64,000 nt of DNA, taken from the NCBI RefSeq assembly GCF_001887355.1, contig NZ_MPIN01000008.1, forward strand, positions 51,935 to 115,934, read 5' to 3'. Position numbers and translations under genes: made by a program. This DNA is from Cystobacter ferrugineus. GTDB taxonomy: Bacteria > Myxococcota > Myxococcia > Myxococcales > Myxococcaceae. Of the stretch, positions 1 to 25,892 are shown in pieces; position 1 is the first letter of the stretch; the number at the start of each line of letters is the position of its first letter. The notes under the pieces are model-generated. The model was not told where the DNA came from. It made no database searches and saw only the letters and a list, made by a program, of their open reading frames with translations.

Positions 1-80
1 GGGTTCTTCTCAGGAAGCCATCTGGAGGGCTGAAGGCGGTGGGGGGGAACCTCCTTCGACCAGCTCCGACGTGCTCCGAG
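1..80 (-). ncRNA. pxr: Pxr-like small RNA, left copy (3' end outside window)
   Basis: Second copy of the RNA gene at 279-403, cut by the window edge. Read on the minus strand, a -24/-12 promoter at 90-106 predicts a start near 80. The RNA then carries a hairpin whose loop is the same as in the other copy (a run of seven C followed by ACC), flanked by GAAGG/CCTTC arms. It ends at position 1 in the same GAAGAACCC that directly precedes the terminator of the other copy, so its own terminator should lie just outside. Start-to-terminator distance is 80 against 81 bases. Known from memory: Pxr of Myxococcus xanthus blocks fruiting-body development while nutrients last. The name is inferred from location, promoter type and shape. 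Confidence 0.68.
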
Positions 81-89
81 TCTATGCTT

Positions 90-106
90 TAGCACTCCCC
101 ATGCCA
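90..106 (-). promoter_or_regulatory. sigma-54 promoter of left Pxr-like RNA
   Basis: Minus strand reads TGGCATG-N4-GTGCT, close to the sigma-54 consensus TGGCACG-N4-TTGCW, with the invariant GG and GC in place. The same element with identical spacing stands before the other copy (413-429). Predicted start near 80. Confidence 0.75.
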
Positions 107-180
107 CTCCTTCCCTCCACCCAAACCCCAAGGATTCCGGGCACTTGGGCGTCTGGACAGAAGGACTGGAGCCGAGCCGC

Positions 181-226
181 TTTCAGCTCTGCAATGCAGC
201 CCTGCAATCGCCTTTCACATGTGAAA
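181..226. promoter_or_regulatory. candidate activator sites upstream of left Pxr-like RNA
   Basis: Holds TTTCAGC-N-CTGCAA (181-194), a TGCA-N4-TGCA palindrome (195-206), and a perfect 14-bp palindrome centred on CACATGTG (213-226). They lie about 100 to 145 bases upstream of the predicted start, the usual place for an enhancer-binding protein. The first two motifs recur upstream of the right copy. Confidence 0.4.
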
Positions 227-278
227 AGCCCCCAGCCCTTCTCTCCCGGGAGGCGGGGCTCGATCATCTCCTGGGCCC

Positions 279-322
279 AAAAAGAAGGCGGCCCGGAACC
301 CTCGAAGAGGGTACCGGGCCGC
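279..322 (-). terminator. Rho-independent terminator of right Pxr-like RNA
   Basis: Arms 288-303 and 307-322 pair over 15 of 16 positions with a GAA loop (one A/A mismatch), followed on the minus strand by CTTCTTTTT (287-279). One of the clearest intrinsic terminators in the window. Confidence 0.92.
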
Positions 323-403
323 GGGTTCTTCTAAAGGAAACACACCGGAGACACTGAAGCGGTGGGGGGGAACCTCTTCAGCGCCACATCAGCGCGTTCC
401 GAC
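279..403 (-). ncRNA. pxr: Pxr-like small RNA, right copy (about 125 nt)
   Basis: Complete small RNA gene on the minus strand, about 125 bases from the predicted start (403) to the end of the U tract (279). The 5' part folds as CTGAAG/CTTCAG, with an inner GGU/ACC pair closing a C-rich loop. The left copy keeps the loop exactly, while its arms differ in a way that still pairs, which is the mark of selection on structure. A strong terminator follows. The gene lies directly beyond the stop of a sigma-54 response regulator, as Pxr lies beside nla19 in M. xanthus (recalled). I could not compare it with the real Pxr sequence. Confidence 0.75.
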
Positions 404-412
404 TCCAACCTT

Positions 413-429
413 TAGCACGCTGCATGCCA
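413..429 (-). promoter_or_regulatory. sigma-54 promoter of right Pxr-like RNA
   Basis: Minus strand reads TGGCATG-CAGC-GTGCT. The -24 GG and -12 GC are present with the correct 14-base step, and the predicted start is 403. The element and the bases just after it match the promoter at 90-106. Confidence 0.78.
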
Positions 430-504
430 GCCCCTCCGCCGTCTCAAAACCCCGTCATTTCAAGGACTTGAGCGGCGTTCCTTCCCCGAGGGGCACCTTC
501 CGGC

Positions 505-541
505 ATTGCACGGCTGCAATCCGTTTTCAGCGCTGCAAATC
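505..541. promoter_or_regulatory. candidate activator sites upstream of right Pxr-like RNA
   Basis: A perfect palindrome ATTGCA-N4-TGCAAT at 505-520, about 110 bases upstream of the predicted RNA start, is followed by TTTTCAGCGCTGCAAA at 523-538. Both motif types recur upstream of the left copy. Likely the binding site of a sigma-54 activator; the regulator encoded at 600-2033 is the obvious but untested candidate. Confidence 0.42.
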
Positions 542-599: not shown

Positions 600-2033
600 T
601 CACTCCCGATGTTCGCCTCCAGGTGGACGGAGGTTGAGGCGCTTCATCTTCCGCCACAGCGTGGTGGAGGAGATGGCCAGTTCCTCGGCCACGCGGCCCA
701 GGTCCATCGCGTAGCGCTCCAAGGCCTGGGCGATCGCCCGCCGCTCGGCCTCCTCCACCGCCTCGGCCAGCGTGGGCACGCGGGAGCTGACGTCCGTGGT
801 GAGCGGCGCGGGCGGTGCATCCGGAGCCCCTCCCACCCGGGTGTGGGGACGCAGGGGAAAGTCCTCCGGAAGCAGCTCCTCGCCTTCGGACAGCGCCGCC
901 GCCTGCTCCACCAGGTTCTCCAACTCCCGGACGTTGCCCGGGAAGTTGTGGCCCATCAGGTGCTCCACCGCCGCCGCCGACAGGCGCTTGGGGTTGGGGC
1001 TGCGCGCATTGGCGCGCTTGAGGAAGTGCTCGGCCAGCGCGGGCACGTCCTCCAGGCGCTCGCGCAGCGGAGGCACCCGCAGGGTCACCACGTTGAGCCG
1101 GTAGTAGAGATCCTGCCGGAAGCGCTTCTCCTGCACCTCCAGCTCGATGTCCCGGTTGGTGGCGGCGACGATGCGCACGTCCACCTTCACCGCGGTGGAC
1201 TCGCCCACGCGCCGCACCTCGCCATCCTGCAGCGTGCGCAGCAGCTTGGACTGGAAGGCGGGCGTCGTCTCCGTCACCTCGTCGATGAAGAGCGTGCCCC
1301 CGTCCGCCTCCTCCACCAGGCCCCGGCGGGCCCGCACCGCCCCCGTGAAGGCCCCCTTGGCGTGGCCGAACAGCTCGCTCTCGAGCAGCGTCTCGGAGAT
1401 GGCGGCGCAGTTGACGGGCACGAAGGGCAGGGCCTTGCGCCGGCTGTGCGCGTGCACCGCGCGCGCGACGAGCTCCTTGCCCGTACCGCTCTCGCCCTGC
1501 ACCAGCACCGTGGCGTCACTCTGCGCCACGCGCACCAGCCGCGACGTCAGCTCGAGCATCGCCGGACTGCGGCCCACCAGCGCGCTCAAGCCGTGACGCT
1601 CGTTGAACTCGCCGGCCAGCATGTCCACCGTGGCCTGCAGCCGCGCCCGCTCCTGCGCCCGCTCCACCCGGTAGCGCAGCTCCCCTTCCTTGAAGGGCTT
1701 GGTGACGTAGTCGAACGCCCCCTGGCGCATGGCCTCCACGGCGCTCTCGATGGAGCCGAACGCCGTCATCATGATGACCTGCAGGCGAGGCGACACCTCC
1801 AGCGCCTTCTTGAGCAGGGTGAGCCCATCCATGGGCTCCATCTTGAGGTCGGTCAGCATCAGCTCCACGCGGCCGCTCGACAGGATCTGCAGTGCCTCCT
1901 CGCCCGTGGCGGCCTCGAGCACGAAGTAGCCCTCGGAGCGCAGGAGCAGCGCGGTGGTGGCGCGCATGTTGCGCTGGTCATCCACCACCAGGATGCGGCC
2001 ACGGGGAAGGGTAGTCGTCGATGGGTCGGTCAC
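600..2033 (-). CDS. nla19: sigma-54 response regulator, NtrC family (Nla19-like)
   Basis: 477 aa cytoplasmic transcription activator. The order is receiver domain (residues about 10-125, phospho-acceptor Asp in the TDLKM stretch), AAA+ sigma-54 interaction domain (about 150-385: Walker A GESGTGKE, sigma-54-contacting GAFTGA, Walker B GGTLFIDE), and a C-terminal Fis-type helix-turn-helix ending in the TTLWRKMKRL region. The GTG start overlaps the TGA of the upstream kinase gene (GTGA), so the pair is translationally coupled and almost certainly forms one two-component system. The longer ORF upstream of the GTG runs through kinase sequence and is not used. The name Nla19 rests on the Pxr-like RNAs next door (established link recalled from M. 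xanthus), not on a sequence comparison. Confidence 0.93.
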   Translation of the reverse strand: MTDPSTTTLPRGRILVVDDQRNMRATTALLLRSEGYFVLEAATGEEALQILSSGRVELMLTDLKMEPMDGLTLLKKALEVSPRLQVIMMTAFGSIESAVEAMRQGAFDYVTKPFKEGELRYRVERAQERARLQATVDMLAGEFNERHGLSALVGRSPAMLELTSRLVRVAQSDATVLVQGESGTGKELVARAVHAHSRRKALPFVPVNCAAISETLLESELFGHAKGAFTGAVRARRGLVEEADGGTLFIDEVTETTPAFQSKLLRTLQDGEVRRVGESTAVKVDVRIVAATNRDIELEVQEKRFRQDLYYRLNVVTLRVPPLRERLEDVPALAEHFLKRANARSPNPKRLSAAAVEHLMGHNFPGNVRELENLVEQAAALSEGEELLPEDFPLRPHTRVGGAPDAPPAPLTTDVSSRVPTLAEAVEEAERRAIAQALERYAMDLGRVAEELAISSTTLWRKMKRLNLRPPGGEHRE

Positions 2034-4528
2034 GGCGGACTCGTCGGCTGGTTGAGGGGGAGACGGATGGAGAAGGTCGTGCCACGGCCCGGAGAGCTCT
2101 CCAAGGAGAGCTCTCCGTGGTGCTCCTCGATGATGCGCTTGACCACCGCGAGCCCCAGTCCGGTGCCCTGGGCCTTGGTGGTGAAGAAGGGCTCGAAGAC
2201 GCGGTGGATGAGCTCGGTGGGAATGCCACACCCCTGATCCTCCACGTCGATGCGCAGGATTTCCCGGTTGTCATGCAGCTCGCGGCGGGCGAGCACCCGC
2301 ACCCCGCCGCCCTGGGGCATCGCCTGCATGGCGTTGACCAGCATGTTGATGAGCACCTGGCGGATGTGACGCCGATCCAACGGCACCCGGGGCAGCTCCG
2401 GCTCCACTTCGATGCTGGGGGTGATGTGGCTCGGGCTGCCCTGCTGCTTCCACGCCGCCTCCACCGCGTCCTGCAGCATGCGCGACACGTCCTCGAGCTG
2501 GCGGATGGGCTCGCGCGGCCGCGTGTAGTCGAGCAGATCGCTCACCATGCGATCCAACCGGTCACTCTCCTCCGCGAGGATGTCCAGGAGCATGGCCGTA
2601 TCGCCATCCGGCTTGAGCAGGTGGCGCAACGAGGCCACGGCGTTGAAGATGGCGCCCAGGGGATTGCGCACCTCGTGGGCCACGATGGCCGACAGCTCGC
2701 CCAGGGCCGCCAGGCGCTCGCGCTTGACCATCTCCGCGCGCGCCGCGGCCAGCTCCGCGTAGGACGCCCACAGCGACTCGTACAGACGCGCGTTGGTGAT
2801 GGCCAGGGCAATCTGCCCGCACGTGGCCTCGGCCAGTTCGATGAACGCCGTGGGGAAGAGCCGGGGCCGGCGCGTATCGTCCAGCAACACCACGCCGATG
2901 AGTTGATCACGCGAGGTGAGCGGCAGCCCCAGCATCGCCTTCTCCCCGAGCTGTTGCACGAGCGCGCGCCGCCCGATGCCCCGGGCCTTCGACAGGTCCG
3001 GCAGGGCGATGGACCGGCGATCGCGCGCCACGCGCGCCGCGATGCTGTCGGGGTCCTCCACCGGTATCACCAGGCCCCGGAAGAAGTCCCGATGGGTGGC
3101 GGAGGCCGCGGCCCCCCGCAGCACCCCCGCCTGCTCGTCATGCAGGAGGATGAAGCAGTTGGACACGTCCAGCAGCTTGACGAGGAAGTCCGAGGCCACG
3201 TCCAGGATGCTCGCCACCTCCAACGTGGCGGCGGTGGTGCGCGCCAGGTCCAACAGCAGGCGCGAGTCGGCGAGCTGGCGCGCGGACTCGGCCCGCAGGC
3301 GGCGCTGCTCCAGCAACATCATCAACAGCTCGGCCAGCGTGCCCAGCAGCCGCAGCTCCTCCGAGCTGAAGGGATGGTCCGCGCCGCGCAGCACCTGCAG
3401 GAGCCCCCCGGGATGGCCTCCTTGCAACAGCGGCACCGCCGCGCTCCGCACCAGACGGCCCGCGGACAGCGCACGCCACTCGCGCTCCTCCGCCTCGCTG
3501 GAGAGCACCACGCCCCGAGCCGACATCTCCGCCGACAGCCACTCTTCCCGCGGCATGGGGAGCGCCTGCGCCAGGGCCGGCTCCAGACCCACCTGCGCCA
3601 CGAGCCCCCAGGGCCCCTCCGGCGACTCCGACGCGTACAACAGCACGGCCTCCGCCCCCACCAGCAGGGACAGCCGCGCGAGGAAGTCCTGGGGCGAGGG
3701 GGGCTCGGGCAGCGCGACGAAGCGCGCCACCTCGGCCACTGACGACAGCTCCCAGCGGCTGCGCTCCACGTCCGCCAACAGCCGCGCATCCGTGAGCGCC
3801 GCCCCCACCACCTTGGCAAAGAGCTCCAGCACCGGACCATACGAGGGCCGCACATCCGAGCCCGCCACCCACAGCACCTCCGACGACGGGGTGCCCAACG
3901 CGAGGTAGACGGCCGTGGACTCGTTCTCGAAGGGGCCGAAGACGGGGCGTGCCTCGGACAGGGCCCGCTGGGCCATCGCCTCATCGAGGCCCTCGAAGGG
4001 GCTGAAGCGCTCTCCCTCCCGCACCAGGAAGCGCGCGGCGAGCCCCACCCGCTGGAAGCCCTCCAGGGCGATGCGCCGCACCGCCTCCTCGGAGCGCGCC
4101 GCCACGAGCTTCGCGGACGTCTCCACCAGGCGCTCGGCCATCTCCAGCTCGTTCGGACGATCGCCCAGCACCAGGTGGTTGCACAGCAGCGCGAAGCCAC
4201 TGCCCTCCAGCTCCACCTCCTGCACGTGCACCGCCAGCTCCCGCGGCCCCACGCCCGGACGCGCCGGGAGCACGTAGCGCCGGGGATCCCTCTCCGCCAG
4301 CGCTCCCTGCTCCCGCAGGCGGTAGCGCATCCGCAGCCTCGCCAGATCCTCCGGGTGGAGGAAGTCGAAGAAGGAGCGGCCCTCGACCTGCTCGCGCGGC
4401 AACCCGTGCATCTCCAGGTAGGCGTCGTTGGCCATCCGGATCCGACCATCCTGGACCACGGAGATGGGATTGGTGAAATTGCCGATGAGGCTGCGCAGGG
4501 TCGCCTCGTTGTAGAGATTCCTCGTCAT
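2030..4528 (-). CDS. sensor histidine kinase with PAS and GAF domains
   Basis: 832 aa soluble sensor kinase, partner of the response regulator that follows with a 4-base overlap. An N-terminal PAS domain (about residues 10-115) is followed by GAF-like regions, the last clear one around 430-570. The phospho-acceptor His lies in the HEVRNPLG box (about 615-625), and the ATPase domain has a GTGLGLAV G2 box near the C-terminus. There is no membrane segment, so the signal is intracellular. Its ATG overlaps the selB stop (ATGA), which puts it in one operon with selB and the phosphoribosyltransferase gene. The ligand is unknown. Confidence 0.93.
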   Translation of the reverse strand: MTRNLYNEATLRSLIGNFTNPISVVQDGRIRMANDAYLEMHGLPREQVEGRSFFDFLHPEDLARLRMRYRLREQGALAERDPRRYVLPARPGVGPRELAVHVQEVELEGSGFALLCNHLVLGDRPNELEMAERLVETSAKLVAARSEEAVRRIALEGFQRVGLAARFLVREGERFSPFEGLDEAMAQRALSEARPVFGPFENESTAVYLALGTPSSEVLWVAGSDVRPSYGPVLELFAKVVGAALTDARLLADVERSRWELSSVAEVARFVALPEPPSPQDFLARLSLLVGAEAVLLYASESPEGPWGLVAQVGLEPALAQALPMPREEWLSAEMSARGVVLSSEAEEREWRALSAGRLVRSAAVPLLQGGHPGGLLQVLRGADHPFSSEELRLLGTLAELLMMLLEQRRLRAESARQLADSRLLLDLARTTAATLEVASILDVASDFLVKLLDVSNCFILLHDEQAGVLRGAAASATHRDFFRGLVIPVEDPDSIAARVARDRRSIALPDLSKARGIGRRALVQQLGEKAMLGLPLTSRDQLIGVVLLDDTRRPRLFPTAFIELAEATCGQIALAITNARLYESLWASYAELAAARAEMVKRERLAALGELSAIVAHEVRNPLGAIFNAVASLRHLLKPDGDTAMLLDILAEESDRLDRMVSDLLDYTRPREPIRQLEDVSRMLQDAVEAAWKQQGSPSHITPSIEVEPELPRVPLDRRHIRQVLINMLVNAMQAMPQGGGVRVLARRELHDNREILRIDVEDQGCGIPTELIHRVFEPFFTTKAQGTGLGLAVVKRIIEEHHGELSLESSPGRGTTFSIRLPLNQPTSPP

Positions 4529-24380: not shown

Positions 24381-25892
24381 CTAGAAGTAGCGCTTGCGCT
24401 TGCTGCTCGGGAGGATGTTGAGCACCTCCCGGTACTTGGCCACGGTGCGCCGGGCGATCTCCGTGCCCTGGGCCTTGAGCAGCTCGACGATCTTCTGATC
24501 CGAGTAGGGGTTGCGCGGATCTTCCTGGCTGACGAGCTGCTTGATGTGGTGCTTGACGGCCTCGCTCGCGGTGTCGTCGCCGGACACGCGGGCGATGGAC
24601 GAGTTGAAGAAGTACTTCAGCTCGAAGATGCCCTGGGGCGTGTGCACGTACTTGTTCGTCGTCACGCGCGACACGGTGGACTCGTGCATGCCGATGTCCT
24701 CGGCCACGTCGCGCAGGATGAGCGGCTTGAGGTGCGCGATGCCCTGGTCGAGGAACTCGCGCTGGAACTTCACGATGCTCTCGGTGACCTTGTAGATGGT
24801 GCGCTGGCGCTGGTGGATGGAGCGGATGAGCCACTGGGCGCTTCGCAGCTTCTCCTGGATGAACTCCTTGGTCTGCCCGGGGCCCACCCCGCCCGCCTTG
24901 AGCGCGTTGCGGTACATGCCGGAGATGCGCAGCTTGGACAGGCCGTCGTCGTTGAGCACCACCGTGTAGTCGTCCTCCATCTTGTAGACGAACACGTCCG
25001 GGGTGATGAACTGCGCGTCGTCGCCGCTGAAGTTGCGGCCCGGCTTGGGATCCAGGCGCGGCAGGAGCTTGGAGGCCTCCACCACCTCGTCCAGCGGCAC
25101 CTTGAGATCCTTGGCGATCGCCGGGAGGTTCTTGCTCTCCAGGTACTTCATGTGGCGCTTGATGATGAGGCCGAGCAGCGGCGCGTGCTTGTCCTTGAGC
25201 GCGGCCACCTGGATGAGCAGGCACTCCTGCAAGTCCCGGGCGGCGCAGCCCTTGGGCTCCAGGTTCTGGATGCGGCGCAGGGTGCGCTCGGCCACGCTCA
25301 TGGGCACGTCCGCCTCGTTGGCCAGGCGGATGAGGGGGTCTCCCTCCACCTCCTCCAGCTTGAGGTAGCCGTCGTGATCCAGGTTGCCGAGGATGAGCAT
25401 GCCCACGCGGCGCTCGGCCTCGTTGAGCCGCAGCGTGCCGAGCTGCTCCTGCAAGTGGTCGACCAGGTCCTCCTTCTCCACCATGTTGGCTTCGAAGGAG
25501 GGCATGTCGTCCGTGGCCACGTTGCCCTTGTTGGACGCCGTGGTCGGCTCGTTGAACTGGTAGCTGTTGAGGTACGCCTCCCAGTCGATCTCCGGCGGAC
25601 CGTCCTTGTCCGCCTTGAACTCCGTCGCCGTGTCCGGGGTGCGCGCCTCGAAATCCCGGGGAATCTCGGTATTCGCCGCCTCCATGGAGGCCTCGCCCGG
25701 CTCCTTGTCCGTCAAGTCGCCGAAGGGCGCCTCGTCCGGCTGCTCCAGGAGCGGGTTCTGGTCCATCTCCTCCCGGACCTGCTCCAACAACTCCATGCGC
25801 GAGAGTTGCAGCAGCTTGATGGCCTGCTGCAGCTGGGGCGTCATCACCAGCTGCTGCGAAAGCTTCAGGCTCTGCTTGAGTTCCATCGCCAT
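24381..25892 (-). CDS. rpoN: RNA polymerase sigma-54 factor
   Basis: 503 aa. Region I at the N-terminus is Gln/Leu-rich (LKQSLKLSQQLVMTPQLQQA) and holds the polymerase closed until an AAA+ activator acts. An acidic region II follows (about 50-130), then the core-binding domain and the C-terminal DNA-binding part with the helix-turn-helix (HESTVSRVTTNKY) and the RpoN box ARRTVAKYRE that reads the -24 element. Complete in length. Lies downstream of lptB after a 262-bp gap that contains a sigma-54-like site, so self-regulation is possible. Confidence 0.97.
   Translation of the reverse strand: MAMELKQSLKLSQQLVMTPQLQQAIKLLQLSRMELLEQVREEMDQNPLLEQPDEAPFGDLTDKEPGEASMEAANTEIPRDFEARTPDTATEFKADKDGPPEIDWEAYLNSYQFNEPTTASNKGNVATDDMPSFEANMVEKEDLVDHLQEQLGTLRLNEAERRVGMLILGNLDHDGYLKLEEVEGDPLIRLANEADVPMSVAERTLRRIQNLEPKGCAARDLQECLLIQVAALKDKHAPLLGLIIKRHMKYLESKNLPAIAKDLKVPLDEVVEASKLLPRLDPKPGRNFSGDDAQFITPDVFVYKMEDDYTVVLNDDGLSKLRISGMYRNALKAGGVGPGQTKEFIQEKLRSAQWLIRSIHQRQRTIYKVTESIVKFQREFLDQGIAHLKPLILRDVAEDIGMHESTVSRVTTNKYVHTPQGIFELKYFFNSSIARVSGDDTASEAVKHHIKQLVSQEDPRNPYSDQKIVELLKAQGTEIARRTVAKYREVLNILPSSKRKRYF

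Follow-up and report, generated by a model that had tools for sequence, protein, structure and literature searches.

The window analyzed here is a 64,000-nucleotide stretch of contig C8 (NZ_MPIN01000008.1) of Cystobacter ferrugineus, with window position 1 corresponding to C8:51935. At its left end, the Rfam Pxr covariance model (RF01812) matched positions 280 to 389 on the minus strand with 84.9 bits (E value, 2.8e−13), above the gathering cutoff of 80 bits. This match, copy 1 (C8:52214-52323), is a complete 110-nt pxr gene with an intrinsic terminator, as identified by the model together with folding. The 5′ 66 nt of a second copy occupy window positions 1 to 66, also on the minus strand (59.4 bits), and the full copy (C8:51891-52000) extends to the left of the window. 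The two RNA genes in a row described in the original prediction are therefore this complete copy and the 5′ part of the next. A third copy had been suspected to the left; one is present, but the number was too low, as an RF01812 search of the genome placed two further full copies there, copy 3 at C8:51566-51675 and copy 4 at C8:51241-51350. All four lie head to tail on the minus strand of C8 and recur every 323 to 325 bp. Copies 2 to 4 scored 57 to 60 bits, below the gathering cutoff of 80 (E values in the genome, 1e−8 to 3e−9), and stand in tandem with copy 1; they are paralogs of copy 1 filed outside the curated RF01812 membership. The count of four comes from a draft assembly; among complete genomes, those of this genus and of the next one have four to five copies. 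An assembly N was seen at C8:51934, inside copy 2 and one base left of the window, where the repeats may have resisted resolution.

Folding of copy 1 recovered the C7 loop, the paired arms, and the strong terminator that had been noted from the letters. Both SL1, with its C-rich loop, and the SL3 terminator stem are present, and SL2 is weak or different in all copies and clearly formed in none; SL2 is also absent from some published pxr paralogs (PMC5568312). The C-loop is identical across all four copies, and the promoter, upstream dyads, and terminator are intact in each. An equal start-to-terminator distance had been claimed for the two copies; as the terminator of copy 2 lies outside the window, the comparison was made in the genome, where both cores are 110 nt. 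The array sits between pxrR and nuoN, with pxrK-pxrR upstream and nuoN convergent downstream. As stated for M. xanthus in the original prediction, pxr lies beside nla19 (pxrR adjoins copy 1), and it precedes an NADH dehydrogenase gene. The covariance-model score, which had been proposed as a check, the synteny, and the promoter motif support the identification of the predicted RNA as Pxr.

Putative σ54 promoters of the −24/−12 type were identified on the minus strand at 414 to 429 for copy 1 (TGGCATGCAGCGTGCT; predicted start near 403) and at 91 to 106 for copy 2 (TGGCATGGGGAGTGCT), coinciding with the elements first placed at 413 to 429 and 90 to 106. Both are 24 nt ahead of the Rfam start. 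A σ54 motif stands before all four copies and before almost all other members of the family, and by motif each pxr gene would have its own σ54 promoter. Adjoining copy 1 is pxrR (also nla19 or spdR; 600 to 2033, minus strand), which encodes an NtrC-type response regulator of 477 amino acids and was assigned from orthologs with conserved synteny. Its partner, the sensor histidine kinase gene pxrK (spdS), lies at 2030 to 4528 on the same strand, upstream of it. The names pxrK and pxrR denote spdS and spdR, and in M. xanthus pxrR is essential for Pxr synthesis and RNase D takes part in Pxr processing (PMC10217877). PxrR is proposed as the candidate activator of every pxr copy. The single match to a σ54 gene (rpoN) in the genome is also located inside the window, with its DNA-binding domain (PF04552; E value, 1.9e−65) at 24390 to 24866 on the minus strand (converted from C8:76324-76800).

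Alignment of the DNA upstream of the promoters identified a dyad, TTKCA-N4-TGMAA, that occurs twice, mostly 19 bp apart from start to start. In copy 1, the dyad near the promoter lies at 506 to 519 (TTGCAGCCGTGCAA) and the far dyad at 525 to 538 (TTGCAGCGCTGAAA). In copy 2, the far dyad is at 213 to 226 (TTTCACATGTGAAA), a middle dyad one letter off the consensus is at 194 to 207 (TTGCAGGGCTGCAT; positioned by its offset from the far dyad), and a third is at 181 to 194 (TTGCAGAGCTGAAA). Upstream sequence was long enough for scoring in 99 pxr genes; 92 of them were preceded by the paired dyad, in each case with a score not attained in any of 200 shuffles. The seven genes lacking the pair are those of G143 to G145, G140, and G141, together with two copies of G072; single dyads are apparent by eye in the upstream DNA of both of these G072 copies. 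The strict form of the pair occurs at only four places in the 12.05-Mb genome of the window, one ahead of each pxr copy. Across 14 further genomes, every strict-pair match lay upstream of a pxr gene or of a mini-pxr gene (see below), and a reversed-pattern control gave zero matches in all 14. No strict-pair match was found in G140 and G144, both without PxrR. The strict pair was also absent from G031 (family f3), which has PxrR, because its second dyad is degenerate.

The distribution of the pair follows that of the regulator. The five genomes with pxr and without a PxrR ortholog, either beside pxr or genome-wide (G143 to G145, G140, and G141; best identity, 41 to 48%), are also without the paired dyad, and three genomes of the window's family, f1, that lack pxr (G067, G104, and G152) likewise lack a PxrR ortholog. 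Since the dyads are absent where PxrR is absent and are specific to pxr, and since PxrR is required for Pxr synthesis (PMC10217877), the paired dyad is very probably the predicted PxrR binding site, with pxr genes very probably the main targets of that predicted site. The accessible text of an earlier study mentions a predicted enhancer region for pxr and does not give its motif (PMC5684412). The paired enhancer and its specificity for pxr appear to be new, as neither was found in the open-access literature or in Rfam. A further conserved block, CAAGTGCYTGARAANACTGG, was seen in f1 between the dyads and the promoter, ∼60 to 80 bp ahead of the RNA (about 450 to 472 of the window for copy 1), and could serve as the binding site of a bending protein or of a second regulator.

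Of the 195 genomes of the phylum, 93 gave an RF01812 match, and all 93 belong to f1. Most of these carry one pxr gene. Genus g1, that of the window's genome, has two to five; another genus, g3, which we take to be Archangium, has four to five where the assembly is whole; and g4 has at most two. Arrays of four to five copies occur in several genomes. In a tree built from 56 copies and the DNA upstream of each, the head copies of g1 and g3 grouped with single-copy genes and the tail copies grouped by lineage, some of them identical, with the deeper forks weakly supported. In the array described here, tail copies 2 to 4 differ from one another at 0 to 1 of 109 to 110 core positions. Their upstream DNA differs at 27 of 215 positions for copies 2 and 3 and at 31 of 215 for copies 2 and 4 (Fisher test against the core, 1e−4 and 3e−6, respectively); copies 3 and 4 differ upstream at 10 of 215, a contrast with the core that is not significant. 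Between head and tail, about 28 of 108 core sites differ, or about a quarter, and the tail unit has a third dyad and a dyad-to-promoter distance unlike that of the head. From the tree grouping and the core versus upstream differences, the head copy is read as the old gene and the ortholog of the single-copy gene, and the tail copies as amplified within each lineage, where selection, gene conversion, or both then maintained their similarity.

Several unusual loci were recorded in the same searches. Extra pxr-like copies with σ54 motifs were seen on contigs without pxrR in G139 (L053 and L054), G110 (L064), and G105 (L080); dyads are also present in G139 and G110. At L050, L071, and L062 (G072, G068, and G147), pxr is on the strand opposite to pxrR, unlike elsewhere, which corresponds to a local inversion. 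The reduced genomes G145, G144, and G143 (L065, L066, and L067; 2.1 to 2.7 Mb) carry pxr beside nuoN without a PxrR ortholog or dyads. The σ54 factor is present in G143 and G144, and when σ70 was considered for these three genomes, the possible −35/−10 spacing fitted poorly. A Pxr-like RNA without a PxrR ortholog, dyads, or a clear σ54 motif was seen in G141 and G140 (L076 and L077). A typical Myxococcaceae pxr locus in an entry named Comamonas sp. KCTC 72670 (L111; BNCN01000002.1) probably reflects a wrong name or sample. RF01812 matches of 35 to 38 bits in G093 (C1:1410810) and G073 (C46:107489), which have neither a C-loop nor a promoter, were rejected as chance. The same was concluded for two hits of a Pxr DNA pattern in 84,980 genomes, an Actinomycetota metagenome-assembled genome (L118) and a Lachnospiraceae contig (L128), with no surrounding Pxr features.

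A characteristic of Pxr is the processing of its transcript into Pxr-L and Pxr-S. In M. xanthus, Pxr blocks fruiting for as long as nutrients are available; one C-to-A substitution in the first loop is enough to remove the block, and accumulation of the RNA requires SL3 (PMC5684412, PMC5568312). Extra pxr dose leads to less sporulation (PMC11928866). The RNA described here shares with M. xanthus Pxr a head copy above the curated RF01812 cutoff, the C7 loop, a conserved SL3 segment, the σ54 promoter, and the place after pxrR, but differs in having four tandem copies instead of one, a weak or absent SL2, and tail copies below the Rfam cutoff. Cystobacter minor is very probably Archangium minus; Cystobacter violaceus is now Archangium violaceum (taxonomy record). 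Tandem pxr paralogs, each with a σ54 promoter, have been published for both under the name Cystobacter, in agreement with the original prediction, and two of four pxr alleles from these strains either did not accumulate or had no activity in M. xanthus (PMC5568312). Tandem pxr arrays are thus already published, and the one here adds another case. The Archangium paralogs resemble it in being tandem, in the same place, under their own σ54 promoters, and diverged; they differ in number (three there, four here) and genus (g3 there, g1 here), and the tail copies here are nearly identical to each other. Vibrio Qrr offers a further comparison, with several σ54-driven small RNA (sRNA) copies under one NtrC-type response regulator, although Qrr is not homologous to Pxr and its genes are mostly scattered and Hfq-dependent. 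The multiple Qrr copies are described in PMC5568312, as is the lack of any Hfq found in myxobacteria.

PxrR orthologs (≥56% identity) were identified in 130 of the 195 genomes of the phylum, far beyond the range of RF01812. In family f3, dyads, a σ54 promoter, and a hairpin of ∼70 nt, here called mini-Pxr, lie downstream of pxrR. The upper part of the hairpin resembles Pxr SL1 (TTGAAG.AGGTCCCCCCCCGCCACTTCA), and the long stem below it serves as the terminator. In G031, which we take to be probably Anaeromyxobacter, mini-Pxr lies between pxrR and nuoN. RF01812 gave no match to eight mini-Pxr loci up to an E value of 1, and mini-Pxr is therefore treated as related to Pxr and outside the Rfam family as built. 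Ten mini-Pxr sequences share 24 pairs, 8 with compensatory changes, and a wider set of 22 sequences shares 15 pairs, 12 of them compensatory. A model built from f3 and f6 only (R1), without Myxococcaceae and containing no promoter, found pxr again at its known places across f1, including all four copies here. It also matched in f2, f4, f5, f7, and f8 and in G188, the last of which is outside the order.

All 24 nontraining matches (16 strong R1; the rest weaker R1 or R2) have a σ54 motif ending 11 to 17 nt before the hairpin (−26 to −32), where 0.61 were expected; 21 of the 24 have its strict form (0.02 expected), and a large majority carry at least one near-perfect dyad. The matches considered exclude weak R1 and R2 hits of less than about 30 bits (for example, in G002, G003, G055, and G159). 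In G188, pxrK, pxrR, dyads, promoter, and hairpin are contiguous. G059 has three tandem copies beside pxrR, the second and third without dyads, and G156 and G157 have tandem mini-Pxr pairs away from pxrR; the mini-Pxr found in f2, f5, f7, and f8 does not adjoin pxrR. A second type of hairpin in f3, with the loop GGGGACCCCCCCGCACCTC (L241, L249, L243, L239, and L242, from G040, G041, G042, G049, and G048, respectively), has dyads and a TGGC-type promoter and lies away from pxrR, as a paralogous RNA. The mini-Pxr family and its reach appear to be new, with nothing found in the open-access literature or Rfam. Given mini-Pxr in other families and outside the order, the compensatory changes, and the σ54 motif in 24 of 24 matches, Pxr looks ancient, not recent. 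The enhancer pair and this wider family, both overlooked in the original prediction, also fit its reading of the RNA as Pxr and so lend it support.

It could be argued that only the head copy works as Pxr and that the tail copies have little effect, having arisen by unequal recombination and since diverged or begun to decay, given the scores of 57 to 60 bits, the homogenized state of the tail repeats, and the failure of two Archangium paralogs in M. xanthus (PMC5568312). We consider this rather unlikely. In pairs 2-3 and 2-4, conservation is far higher in the RNA core than in the DNA upstream of it; every copy retains an intact promoter, dyads, C7 loop, and terminator; arrays of four to five copies persist in several genomes; and among the copies of the Archangium strains it was a middle one, not the head, that functioned in M. 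xanthus (PMC5568312). A better case, though one we do not favor, can be made for copies that diverged toward different targets or conditions, as in Qrr, and act as distinct regulators rather than as a dosage device. The quarter of core sites separating head from tail, the third dyad and altered spacing of the tail, and the functional divergence of published paralogs (PMC5568312) are in keeping with it. However, the C-loop, presumed to be the part that pairs with targets, is identical in all copies, and the identity or near identity of the tail copies suggests dosage.

The link to PxrR and the kinship of the two RNA types can be questioned in the same way. Assigning the dyads to a regulator other than PxrR is improbable when the pair is missing where PxrR is missing and specific to pxr, and when Pxr synthesis requires PxrR (PMC10217877). 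Still more doubtful is the notion that mini-Pxr and Pxr are not homologous and that C-loop hairpins controlled by PxrR arose more than once. Nothing aligns outside the SL1-like core, and mini-Pxr has no SL2 and no separate SL3, as such an origin would have it; yet the G031 mini-Pxr occupies the same place between pxrR and nuoN, the dyads, promoter, and GG-C(7-8)-CC stem-loop are common to both, and a model made from mini-Pxr only finds pxr genome-wide.

The locus is thus very likely a four-copy tandem pxr array controlled by PxrK and PxrR, in which each repeat is a complete unit and PxrR-Pxr is an old pair elaborated by fruiting myxobacteria. The 325-bp repeat unit comprises a putative PxrR-type dyad pair ∼19 bp apart, a σ54 promoter, and a terminated 110-nt RNA in which the C7 loop does not vary. 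Judging from sequence and M. xanthus genetics, PxrK would control PxrR, and PxrR would drive σ54 RNA polymerase at the promoter of each copy. Phosphorylated PxrR may bind both dyads, about 90 to 110 bp before the −24 element, of every unit. Processing would then yield the active RNA, whose C-rich loop could pair with G-rich target sites. If every unit is driven by PxrR at its own promoter, copy number would add to the Pxr dose; several copies could raise Pxr output or let it persist, with additive dosage in this species, and head-tail divergence may give the copies separate functions in addition. Some copies could be inactive, given that two of the four paralogs from Archangium did not function in M. 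xanthus (PMC5568312). The pair is considered old because the unit, mostly as mini-Pxr, is found in other families and in one genome outside the order. It is likely, on the sequences compared, that the Myxococcota have an ancient regulatory pair, PxrR and a C-loop hairpin RNA, which extends to lineages thought not to fruit and in which pxr genes are the sole or main targets of PxrR, and that the Pxr of fruiting types is a derived, three-stem form that was repeatedly amplified in tandem.

Pxr has served as a leading example of a young sRNA controlling multicellular development (Chen et al. 2014, as cited in PMC5568312 and PMC8538405). An ancient PxrR-Pxr pair would contradict the published recent origin of Pxr in Cystobacterineae. 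If regulator, enhancer, promoter, and loop are indeed common to lineages thought not to fruit, the RNA would have had an older job, one open to study in those lineages. The conserved loop would then narrow the search for Pxr targets. The dyad gives PxrR a candidate binding site. In M. xanthus, sporulation is limited by the dose of Pxr, for which the arrays supply naturally occurring variants in copy number.
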